A stretch of 64,000 bases of DNA. Origin: Paenibacillus phyllosphaerae. Its GTDB lineage: Bacteria; Bacillota; Bacilli; Paenibacillales; Paenibacillaceae. The stretch is from the NCBI RefSeq assembly GCF_014192105.1, contig NZ_JACHXK010000008.1, positions 124,001 to 188,000 of the forward strand, given 5' to 3'. The position numbers and the translations under genes are program-made. Below the pieces are notes generated by a model. The model was not told where the DNA came from and made no database searches. It saw only the letters and a program-made list of their open reading frames with translations. Below are positions 557 to 62,536 of the stretch, piece by piece (position 1 is the first letter of the stretch; each line of letters opens with the position of its first letter).

Positions 557-1528
557 ATGAACACAGCAGCGGCACAAGCGAAGGCCACGCTGCCGGGAAA
601 CGGCAAGTCCGCCGGGATCGGCAAGCGGTTACGCCAGCAAAAAATGCTCTGGCTGATGATCCTGCCGGCATTCGTCTGCACGCTATTCTTCTCGTACGGC
701 CCGCTGTTCGGCCTGTATATGGCATTCATTAATTATCAGCCGGGCGGTTCGTTCTTCACGTCGTTCTTCCACAGCGAATTCGTCGGGCTGCAGTGGTTTC
801 GTTACTTCTTCACGAACGGGGACTTCTGGATCATCATGCGCAACACGCTGGCGCAGAGCTTGCTCAGCCTGTTATTCGGCTTCCCGGCGCCGATCATTCT
901 GGCGCTAGCGATCAATGAGGTGCGGAGCGGGGCGTTCAAGAAGCTTTTTCAGACCGTATCGTATCTGCCGCACTTTATCTCGTGGGTAATCGCGGCGAAC
1001 ATCATCATCACGCTGCTGTCCTCGGAAGGTCTGGTCAATAAGATCCTGATGGTGCTGCATCTGACCGATGAGCCGATCGCGTTCTTCCAGAACGGGCATT
1101 ACTTCTGGTGGATCATCGCTTCGTCCAACACGTGGAAGGATATGGGGTTCAACGCCATCATGTATCTGGCCGCCATCGCCGCGATCAATCCCGAACTGTA
1201 TGAAGCGGCCAAAGTCGACGGAGCCTCGCGAATGAAGCAAATGCTGTACGTGACGCTGCCCGCGCTGAAGCCGACGATCGTGATCCTGCTCATCCTGGCG
1301 GTCGGCGGGGTGCTGAATGCCGGATTCGACCAGCAATATTTGTTACAGAATGACCTGGTGCTTCAATACTCCGACGTTATCGACACCTATACGTACCGGT
1401 ACGGCTTGCAGAACAGCATGTTCTCGTACGCTTCGGCCGTCGGATTGTTCAAGTCGATCGTGGCATTCGTCCTGGTGCTGACCGTGAATCATATCGCGAA
1501 GAAGGTCAATGACCAATCGCTGTTCTAG
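557..1528 (+). CDS. Sugar ABC transporter permease, LplB type
   Basis: A 323-residue inner permease subunit of a carbohydrate importer (MalF/LplB type). A positively charged N-terminus (KRLRQQK) precedes about six hydrophobic segments. The cytoplasmic EAA loop that docks the ATPase is visible as YEAAKVDGASRMKQ near residues 215-228. The end, VNHIAKKVNDQSLF, is typical of LplB-like proteins. ATG follows AAGGAGGGG with good spacing. It is first in a run with the LplC-type permease (1562), the binding lipoprotein (2597) and an alpha-galactosidase-like enzyme (4362). No ATPase is encoded nearby, so a shared MsmX-type ATPase is likely. The substrate is probably a galactoside or related oligosaccharide, judged only from the neighbouring hydrolase. 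Confidence 0.93.
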   Translation: MNTAAAQAKATLPGNGKSAGIGKRLRQQKMLWLMILPAFVCTLFFSYGPLFGLYMAFINYQPGGSFFTSFFHSEFVGLQWFRYFFTNGDFWIIMRNTLAQSLLSLLFGFPAPIILALAINEVRSGAFKKLFQTVSYLPHFISWVIAANIIITLLSSEGLVNKILMVLHLTDEPIAFFQNGHYFWWIIASSNTWKDMGFNAIMYLAAIAAINPELYEAAKVDGASRMKQMLYVTLPALKPTIVILLILAVGGVLNAGFDQQYLLQNDLVLQYSDVIDTYTYRYGLQNSMFSYASAVGLFKSIVAFVLVLTVNHIAKKVNDQSLF

Positions 1529-1561
1529 CAGGCGGCTCGCTTAGAGAAAGGAAGAGGTTTC

Positions 1562-58201: not shown

Positions 58202-58245
58202 GCAACACACCAACGTAAACAAATAGGGGATGGGTGGTTTCAAGC

Positions 58246-59532
58246 ATGGTCACGGTACAGAAGCGTTTCGTCAGTTTATTCGTATGTTTTGCATTACTGT
58301 TATCCCTAGTGCCGAGCTTCACGGCAACAGCCGCTGCCAAGGCGGTGAACGTCACGGTCGATGGGAAAAAGCTCACTGCTAACGTCAGCCCGCAGACTGT
58401 CAACGGCCGGACATTCGTTCCATACAGAGCCATTGCGGAAGCGATCGGCGCTACCGTCAAGTTCGACAGCAAGACGAACCGCGCTACGATTACGAAAGGC
58501 AAACAGACGGTCGAGCTCACGGTCGGGAGCAAGACCGCCAAGATTAACGGCAGCTCCGCAAAGCTGGATGCCGCTCCGCTGAATGTGAAGGGCACGCTGT
58601 TGGTTCCGCTTCGTTTCGTGGGCGAGTCGCTTGGCGTATGGGTTACGTGGAAAGCCAGCACGTCGACGGCGGCCCTGGAGACGAAGAAAACGATCAAGCA
58701 TAGCTTGGGCTCGACGACGCTTAACAGCGTGCCTAAGCGGGCTGTAGTTCTGTTCAACGGAGCTGTTGATATCTCCGTCCTGCTCGAAGTGAAACCAGTT
58801 GGGGCAGTAGAGTCCTATATCCAGCAGCCTTTCTACGAATATATTCGTCCGAAATTGAAAGGTACGAAGACGCTTGGAGACGAAACGCAGCCGAATCTCG
58901 AAGCGATCGCAGCATTGAAGCCGGATGTGATTATCGCGACTAAAGTGCGCCACGAGAAGATCCATGCGCAGCTGAAATCCATTGCCCCGACGATCGTAAC
59001 CGAAGATCTGTCCGATTGGCAGGACAACCTGCAAATTCAAGCGCAGATTTTCAACAAAGAAGAAATTGCGGCTGAATTCCTTGCCGAATGGAAAGCGAAG
59101 GTCGCAGACTTCAAGCGCAAGCTGCCGGCCAAGGACAAAGGCGCGGCGATCTCGATTATCCGGTTCAATCCGGATGGCAGCGCACGTGCGTACAACGCCG
59201 GTTTCGCGTATAAAATTTTCAAAGAGCTCGGGTTCTCGACGCCGAAGCAGCAGCTGGCAACCGGCCAGGAATTCATTACGGTCAGCTCGCTGGAACAGGT
59301 CAGCCTGCTCGACGGCGATTACATCTTCGACTTCACGACCGATTGGGATGGCGATGGGGCCGTGCTGCAGCATCAGAAGAAATGGACGACTAGCGACCTG
59401 TGGAAGAACTTAAATGCGGTGAAGAAAGACAAGTATTACAAGGTCAACTCCGTTACCTGGAACTTGTCCGGCGGAGCAATGGCGGCGGATCTGCTGCTCG
59501 ACGATCTCTATTTCCACTTCGATTTGGAGTAG
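58246..59532 (+). CDS. Siderophore-binding protein with N-terminal copper-amine-oxidase-like domain
   Basis: A 428-residue exported protein. Its signal peptide ends near ATAAAKA with no lipobox cysteine, unusual for a Gram-positive binding protein. Residues about 34-145 are a copper-amine-oxidase N-terminal-like domain (VNVTVDGKKL, VNGRTFVPYRAIAEAIGATV, LLVPLRFVGESLGVWVTW), common in Paenibacillus wall-associated proteins. Residues about 150-428 are a FhuD/FecB-type ligand-binding fold (VPKRAVVLFNG, PNLEAIAALKPDVIIATKV). It starts 44 bases after the lipoprotein gene and precedes two FecCD permeases, so it is the receptor of this importer. ATG 58246 is preferred over GTG 58234 on spacing. Confidence 0.87.
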   Translation: MVTVQKRFVSLFVCFALLLSLVPSFTATAAAKAVNVTVDGKKLTANVSPQTVNGRTFVPYRAIAEAIGATVKFDSKTNRATITKGKQTVELTVGSKTAKINGSSAKLDAAPLNVKGTLLVPLRFVGESLGVWVTWKASTSTAALETKKTIKHSLGSTTLNSVPKRAVVLFNGAVDISVLLEVKPVGAVESYIQQPFYEYIRPKLKGTKTLGDETQPNLEAIAALKPDVIIATKVRHEKIHAQLKSIAPTIVTEDLSDWQDNLQIQAQIFNKEEIAAEFLAEWKAKVADFKRKLPAKDKGAAISIIRFNPDGSARAYNAGFAYKIFKELGFSTPKQQLATGQEFITVSSLEQVSLLDGDYIFDFTTDWDGDGAVLQHQKKWTTSDLWKNLNAVKKDKYYKVNSVTWNLSGGAMAADLLLDDLYFHFDLE

Positions 59533-61691: not shown

Positions 61692-61732
61692 CGCGGCTGA
61701 GGGAAGCGTCGACTTCCTTCGGCCTTTTTTGT
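61692..61732 (+). terminator. Terminator of the siderophore operon
   Basis: GGCTGAGGGAAG pairs with CTTCCTTCGGCC (including G-T pairs), followed by TTTTTT. Confidence 0.82.
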
Positions 61733-61852
61733 ACTTATTCTAATGAAAAAGTTGGCAGATGGACGTGCCGTTCATGCATATAGTTATGGTAAACAGGGAT
61801 ATCAAGGGATTGCTTCCGCCGTTCATGACTATGAATGAAAGGAGGTGATATC

Positions 61853-61915
61853 ATGGGTTACCAAGAGCTTCTCATTCTGTTCCTCAAAGCGTTGGCTGAG
61901 TTGATCGCGAAGTAA
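61853..61915 (+). CDS. Twenty-residue amphipathic peptide
   Basis: A very short gene encoding MGYQELLILFLKALAELIAK. The ribosome binding site is unusually strong: AAAGGAGGTGATATC directly before the ATG, an extended match to the anti-Shine-Dalgarno sequence. The gene stands between the siderophore operon terminator and its own strong terminator at 61940-61970, so it looks like a dedicated unit. The peptide should form an amphipathic helix with Leu/Ile/Phe on one face and Glu/Lys/Gln on the other, similar in style to phenol-soluble modulins, delta-lysin or very small membrane-active peptides. It has no export signal. I know no named family that matches. Confidence 0.65.
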   Translation: MGYQELLILFLKALAELIAK

Positions 61916-61939
61916 GTGATAGTCGTGCATATAGATAGA

Positions 61940-61970
61940 GGGCAGCCGGTGCTACGACCGGCTGCCCTTT
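61940..61970 (+). terminator. Terminator of the small peptide gene
   Basis: GGGCAGCCGG pairs perfectly with CCGGCTGCCC around an eight-base loop, followed by TTT. It may also serve the convergent gene ending at 61993. Confidence 0.85.
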
Positions 61971-61992
61971 GCACGTTGTTAGGTCCAGACGA

Positions 61993-62316
61993 TTATACGT
62001 CTTCACCGAACGTATCTTCCGCCGCGTTCCCCGCGTCTTGATCGCCGGGATAGTCGCGGTCCAAGCCCGCATGCAGCGTACGGTTCTCATAATCGAAGCG
62101 GTTCGATGCGCGCTGATCTTCGCGCCAAGGCGTGCTTTTGCCCAGCCGAGGGGGGACGATTCGGGAACCGTAAGGTCCTTCGGGGAATTCCTGCGCATTC
62201 ATGTCGTTGCGCTGAGACTCCACGGAAGCCAGATCGGTATAGTATGGATATCGTTTGGTCTCATCGATGAATTCCTGATCGCCTTTGCCTTCCGGACTGT
62301 AATCGTCACGTGACAT
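61993..62316 (-). CDS. Small acidic hydrophilic protein, unknown
   Basis: A 107-residue soluble protein, strongly charged and without hydrophobic core segments (YSPEGKGDQEFIDETKRYPY, DRDYPGDQDAGNAAEDTFG), so it is probably largely disordered. ATG 62316 is chosen because AAGGAGG lies seven bases before it; an ATG six bases earlier is too close. Its composition resembles small spore-associated proteins of Bacillota, but I see no diagnostic motif. Confidence 0.7.
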   Translation of the reverse strand: MSRDDYSPEGKGDQEFIDETKRYPYYTDLASVESQRNDMNAQEFPEGPYGSRIVPPRLGKSTPWREDQRASNRFDYENRTLHAGLDRDYPGDQDAGNAAEDTFGEDV

Positions 62317-62536
62317 GGTCATTCCTCCTTCATGTCGCCTTACTGTAATGCCCACGAATTGCGCTTGAGTTATCCATGAGTAGTATGGCTTAATGAGTCC
62401 TAGTTATCCTGAAATTGGCGTTGCTTACATCTCCATCAGCCTGTTCGATCATCATGCGGAGAAGGACGGCTTACATATTTTGCGGCCGGCTTCCAAACAA
62501 TGAAGTGAGAAGATTATCCAACAGGTGGGAGTAGGT

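Follow-up and report, generated by a model that had tools for sequence, protein, structure and literature searches.

A 20-codon gene of Paenibacillus phyllosphaerae that probably encodes a small membrane peptide, and its divergent homolog in Paenibacillus methanolicus

A 20-codon open reading frame (ORF) lies between a permease gene and a convergent gene in Paenibacillus phyllosphaerae. We analyzed a 64-kb stretch of DNA from this organism (the window) and found an ATG at 61853-61855, 20 sense codons, and a TAA at 61913-61915, exactly as placed in a preliminary description of the sequence (Table 1). The ORF is in a gap of 309 nt, free of larger genes as that description had it, that extends from the stop codon of an upstream gene for a FecCD permease (Pfam PF01032) to the stop codon of a convergent gene on the minus strand (61993-62316). 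The convergent gene encodes an acidic, polar protein of 107 residues that had no Pfam match and that was matched in 22 of 22 genus genomes; it is small and conserved and apparently falls in no Pfam family. Further upstream on the plus strand, a gene at 58234-59532 encodes a substrate-binding protein in which a copper amine oxidase N-terminal-type domain (PF07833) is fused to a periplasmic binding domain (PF01497), and this gene is upstream of two FecCD-type permease genes (the first of them read from its ORF translation). We rejected a leader peptide or attenuator because the gene that follows the ORF is on the other strand and the next likely plus-strand gene starts at ~62525-62531.

Table 1. 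Positions of the features at the peptide locus in the window
Feature	Position	Strand	Comment
Peptide gene, 20 codons and stop	61853..61915	+	Encodes MGYQELLILFLKALAELIAK; homolog in P. methanolicus
Extended Shine-Dalgarno sequence GAAAGGAGGTGAT	61837..61849	+	Match to the presumed anti-SD complement
Terminator of the upstream FecCD gene	61695..61730	+	12-pair stem 61695-61724, then a T-rich tail; peptide gene beyond
Predicted 5' hairpin	61787..61863	+	Inverted repeat 61787-61804 / 61846-61863, 18 nt, 78%; encloses ribosome site and start region
Perfect 12-bp hairpin, 6-nt loop	61939..61968	.	Stem 61939-61950/61957-61968; between two convergent genes

The ORF is preceded by an extended Shine-Dalgarno sequence. 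The 13 contiguous bases of GAAAGGAGGTGAT are identical to what we take to be the complement of the 16S 3' end (anti-SD), and the GGAGG is separated from the ATG by a 7-nt spacer, in agreement with the earlier claim of near-perfect translation signals directly before the start codon. The longest anti-SD match was 10 among the 64 open frames of at least 200 codons (first eight starts of each), versus 13 for the peptide gene, and no second exact copy of the sequence is present in the window. There are 30 ATG-to-stop ORFs of exactly 20 codons on the two strands of the window, and only the peptide gene (1/30) has any of five 6-nt SD-like words.

A homologous ORF of the same length is present at a different locus in Paenibacillus methanolicus. 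In strain BL24 (L038, 902-964), 20 codons from an ATG, followed by TAG, read MSYDELLLIFLKALAELLAN. This ORF is preceded by the ribosome site AAAAGGTGG with a 7-nt spacer, and a 15-pair terminator-like stem starts ~80 nt past the stop codon. A perfect inverted repeat, TCTGACG-6 nt-CGTCAGA (L038 ~689-708, plus strand), is upstream of this copy and is a possible operator or hairpin. The two peptides are identical at 14 of 20 residues and the ORFs at 40 of 60 bases; the first, second, and third codon positions differ 7, 0, and 13 times, respectively. Ten of the 14 identical residues have different codons, which is the conservation of amino acids with silent changes that the preliminary description had named as support. 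Silent changes are a weak test alone, as the match was found by protein and a chance match from such a search would look alike. The support for coding comes from the agreement of both ends: the match runs from ATG to stop in both copies, and each copy has a ribosome site. The flanking DNA of the two loci has no significant similarity (longest exact word, 10 nt) and the neighboring genes are different, indicating that the two loci have the peptide in common rather than the surrounding RNA. Based on a same-length homolog with its own ribosome site at a different locus, we believe that the 20-residue ORF is probably a real small coding gene.

The two copies are in different genetic contexts. The gene upstream of the P. 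methanolicus copy encodes a GGDEF-EAL protein. The gene after it has a 65% match in the genome of P. phyllosphaerae, where it is preceded by an arabinofuranosidase-type gene, and no second copy of the peptide gene was found in that genome by the peptide search. We found no peptide-like ORF in the 700 bases beside the convergent gene in the 21 other best genus loci; in seven of the 21, a different short ORF that has an SD-like word is present there. The FecCD gene and a phosphodiesterase-like gene are beside the convergent gene only in the window's own genome (~1500 flanking bases examined), and the phosphodiesterase-like protein had no match in P. methanolicus in a search run without a positive control. 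No exporter or receptor gene was recognized directly beside the peptide gene in the window, and no regulator gene directly beside either copy. No direct evidence of a mobile element was seen. Such scattered occurrence without synteny suggests that the gene has been transferred or repeatedly lost.

The peptide gene is rare. A translated search of relatives, which had been proposed along with the ORF, found clear copies in only two of 394 family genomes (the window's own and P. methanolicus BL24), corresponding to two of 22 genus genomes. With the window peptide as query, three of the 394 genomes matched at E up to 10: its own, P. methanolicus (E 0.0017), and L007 (E 2.86), which we judged to be chance since it lacks a usable start and lies partly over the end of a 217-residue ORF. 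A shuffled control peptide had matches in five of the 394 genomes at the same cutoff, the best of them at E 1.95. With the homolog as query, three of 22 genus genomes matched (itself, the window's own, and L006 at E 2.34). A sample of the order gave 10 matches in 392 genomes, and the nine besides the window's own genome were all at E of at least 1.02. A back-translated pattern found P. methanolicus and three unrelated matches in the genome collection and two unrelated matches in viral contigs, and there was no match to the peptide in phage and plasmid collections. These counts are for close relatives of the peptide: several positions of the pattern allow little variation and a 20-residue query is weak in tblastn, such that more divergent copies would escape, and the collections may leave out records near the window's genome. 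Neither peptide matched a family in Pfam or NCBIfam at E up to 10 (20-residue queries have little power) or in PHROGs or PADLOC, and the window peptide had no match in the PDB. The excerpts available from the literature on such peptides in Paenibacillus do not name this one.

A profile made from the two peptides gave no further member among the places inspected. It matched 127 of 394 family genomes at E up to 10; the two members, which trained the profile, scored 46.4 and 45.7 bits and the next place scored 20.4. We inspected the 28 highest-ranked places besides the two members. The place at 20.4 bits (L008), in another genus of the family, is an ORF (1441-1545, minus strand; 32 residues from its ATG) that matches positions 2-12 only (GYDELLIVFLK) and has no visible ribosome site; it may be chance, which we favor, or a decayed relative. 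A frame reading SYDEFLFLFVKC is conserved in seven genomes of one genus, and in the six that were inspected no start codon was seen before the match in L010, which was read with its flanks, or in L011, L012, L014, L016, and L029. Among the matches from the various searches, those in L006 and L035 (P. glycinis) are antisense to an ORF that is presumably tsf, and that in L072 is antisense to a 300-residue ORF. Those in L037, L039, and L040 are inside larger ORFs of another frame, and that in L036 is within a 135-codon frame.

The ORF in the window is flanked by strong predicted hairpins. The one on the 5' side is absent from the preliminary description. An 82-nt 5' region, with borders picked after the fold was seen, folded at -25.3 kcal/mol (z -3.24); by a stricter control, 38 of 909 GC-matched windows of equal length folded as well. 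The mean unpaired probability of the Shine-Dalgarno sequence was 0.37-0.38 in four folded stretches, and that of the start codon varied with the stretch folded (0.39-0.82). The Shine-Dalgarno sequence of P. methanolicus had a mean unpaired probability of 0.47-0.53 in three folded stretches. Partial cover of the Shine-Dalgarno sequence by the 5' hairpin is thus predicted in the window and is not clearly common to P. methanolicus. The 3' side also folded strongly (z -6.47 for 61913-61985). The preliminary description of a perfect ten-base-pair terminator was right about the perfect stem, which has 12 base pairs rather than ten. Its tail, TTTGCACG, is not T-rich, and the hairpin was absent from the list of a terminator scan; we regard it as a possible, unproven terminator with a weak T tail that may serve both convergent genes.

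Consensus scans did not identify a convincing promoter for the peptide gene in the window. The lone sigma-70-like match overlaps the start codon, and one such match is expected by chance. No promoter-like site was found on the minus strand between 61500 and 62600 of the window, or on either strand of L038 from 580 to 1200. Rfam gave no accepted family match at the locus; CC2171, found at a lax threshold, scored 19.1 bits versus a gathering score of 75 and was judged to be chance.

The surface of the predicted helix is mostly hydrophobic, with a narrow charged stripe. In each peptide 14 of the 20 residues are hydrophobic, and the net charge is 0 in the window and -2 in P. methanolicus, in which N20 replaces K20 and E5, K12, and E16 are kept. 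On a helix, E5, K12, E16, and K20 span no more than 80 degrees, as do 2.7% of 3876 random placements, and the conserved E5, K12, and E16 are within 40 degrees (2.6%). The stripe is less marked if Q4/D4 is counted as polar (12.5% and 15.8% of placements). For peptides of this composition the hydrophobic moment is ordinary: it was reached by 13% of 20,000 shuffles of the window peptide and 12% of those of the homolog. The clustering of the four charges is therefore the part of the earlier claim of separate hydrophobic and charged faces that stands, and the moment is not unusual. The peptide had also been proposed to be secreted or membrane-active, a toxin or a signal. Membrane activity fits the sequence; no leader (signal) sequence is apparent, secretion and signaling gained no positive support, and toxicity is something that we infer.

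The peptide has features in common with known membrane toxins. Type I toxins are small hydrophobic peptides of <60 residues with a putative transmembrane helix, and they generally carry cationic C-terminal residues; repression of some needs elements that hide the ribosome site, and IbsC keeps its toxicity when shortened to 15 residues if at least 10 of them are hydrophobic (PMC8309996). Both copies, with 20 residues and 14 hydrophobic, fall within this size and hydrophobicity. Like IbsC-type minimal toxins, the peptide has ~20 mainly hydrophobic residues (PMC8309996); unlike them, it has no Sib-like antisense RNA family match in Rfam and keeps conserved charges mid-helix. TisB, a type I membrane toxin of E. 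coli, is, like the window peptide, a short leaderless helix with its charges on one face. A single hydrophilic face of TisB is formed by the charged residues, including D5, and Q19; K12 and Q19 are essential, replacement of the C-terminal lysines impairs the toxin, and TisB is described as confined to Enterobacteriaceae (PMC11449926). A passage on Bacillus in PMC6562991 is cited beside the TisB comparison. An acidic residue at position 5 and a lysine at position 12 are common to TisB and the peptide, by position only and without a sequence alignment, and this coincidence may be chance. Of the other TisB-family residues, position 19 is A in the peptide and position 20 is K in one copy and N in the other. 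In addition, TisB has 29 residues rather than 20 and a net charge of +1 versus 0 or -2, the peptide has no counterparts of Q19, D22, K26, and K29 as described for TisB, and no antisense RNA was found for it by promoter scan or in Rfam.

We considered whether the ORF is not a gene but arose by chance within a structured intergenic RNA, with P. methanolicus carrying an accidental look-alike. The strong folds that flank the ORF and the lack of a clear promoter would fit, and the score alone would not exclude chance, as an E of 0.0017 times 394 genomes is ~0.7. However, the agreement of both starts and both stops, the ribosome site in each copy, the 13-nt Shine-Dalgarno match, and a shuffled control without a near match all argue for a gene. 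The probability of the ungapped match (BLOSUM62) per random ORF was 1.6e-15; it was 1.3e-13 when the composition was membrane-like and 1.3e-10 when it was that of the peptides themselves. By extrapolation from 30 per 64 kb, the 394 genomes would contain ~1 million ORFs of 20 codons, and we consider a chance origin quite improbable.

If the peptide is made, it could be a small membrane protein that stabilizes or regulates a larger membrane complex. A hydrophobic helix with conserved charged positions, encoded after a FecCD permease gene in the window, would suit such a partner; yet a terminator separates the two genes, most relatives do not have the peptide gene, and there is no shared next-door partner because the upstream gene in P. 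methanolicus encodes the GGDEF-EAL protein, all of which makes this role unlikely. We are also doubtful of a secreted surface-active peptide, a leaderless helix that would leave the cell through an ABC transporter and act on the outside. Staphylococcal phenol-soluble modulins are leaderless, short, helical, and often overlooked by annotation, and the peptide resembles them and the newly found LspU in being short, leaderless, helical, and apparently family-less (PMC12607899). Its sporadic occurrence would fit as well. Unlike the modulins, the peptide has an ordinary hydrophobic moment, comes from different organisms, and has no known exporter, none being recognized beside the gene, and neither peptide matched a curated family model (Pfam and NCBIfam, E up to 10, where short queries have little power). 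Least probable is a short hydrophobic signaling peptide read by a cytoplasmic regulator: the short hydrophobic peptides of streptococci have a similar range of length and hydrophobicity, but no regulator gene was recognized directly beside either copy and there is no signal sequence.

We believe that the most likely explanation, with a probability of roughly 0.4, is a stand-alone gene for a leaderless helical peptide that acts on the producer's own membrane by a TisB-like leak; we rank this ahead of a complex partner, a modulin-like peptide, a chance ORF, and a signal peptide, in that order. It is favored because TisB, too, is described as a hydrophobic helix with a polar stripe. The sequence shows the ORF with its ribosome site, predicted hairpins, homolog, and charge pattern; from these we infer a peptide that, once transcribed and translated, would insert as a 20-residue helix into the cytoplasmic membrane. 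The charged stripe (E5, K12, E16, K20) would let helices pack or oligomerize, and the packed helices would make the membrane leaky to protons or ions, the action proposed for membrane toxins of the TisB type, with an effect on growth. The 5' hairpin would hold down translation from the very strong ribosome site. Several points count against a TisB-like leak: only two members are known, the scans gave neither an antisense promoter nor any other convincing one, the 5' hairpin is not clearly common to both copies, the homolog ends in N20 and has a net charge of -2 where type I toxins generally have cationic C termini, A19 stands in place of the essential Q19, and the stripe is less marked once position 4 is counted. 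The gene probably belongs to a known kind, the small membrane peptides. We do not file it as the toxin of a toxin-antitoxin system because no antisense promoter was found, the homolog has no C-terminal lysine, and Q19 of TisB has no counterpart. We hold it possible, if rather doubtful, that the two copies represent a new, sporadic Paenibacillus family of ultra-short membrane peptides that move between genomes as single genes and are among the shortest natural leak formers with a charge stripe, silenced, at least in the window's genome, by a hairpin that covers an exceptionally strong ribosome site.

If translated, this is a 20-residue gene outside all of the family libraries searched (Pfam, NCBIfam, PHROGs, PADLOC). 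Two divergent copies of equal length with three common charged positions would be a small natural system for exploring the minimum length of a membrane-active helix and the control of such a gene. Reading ribosome sites from raw sequence, followed by comparison of relatives at the protein level, can recover genes this small.
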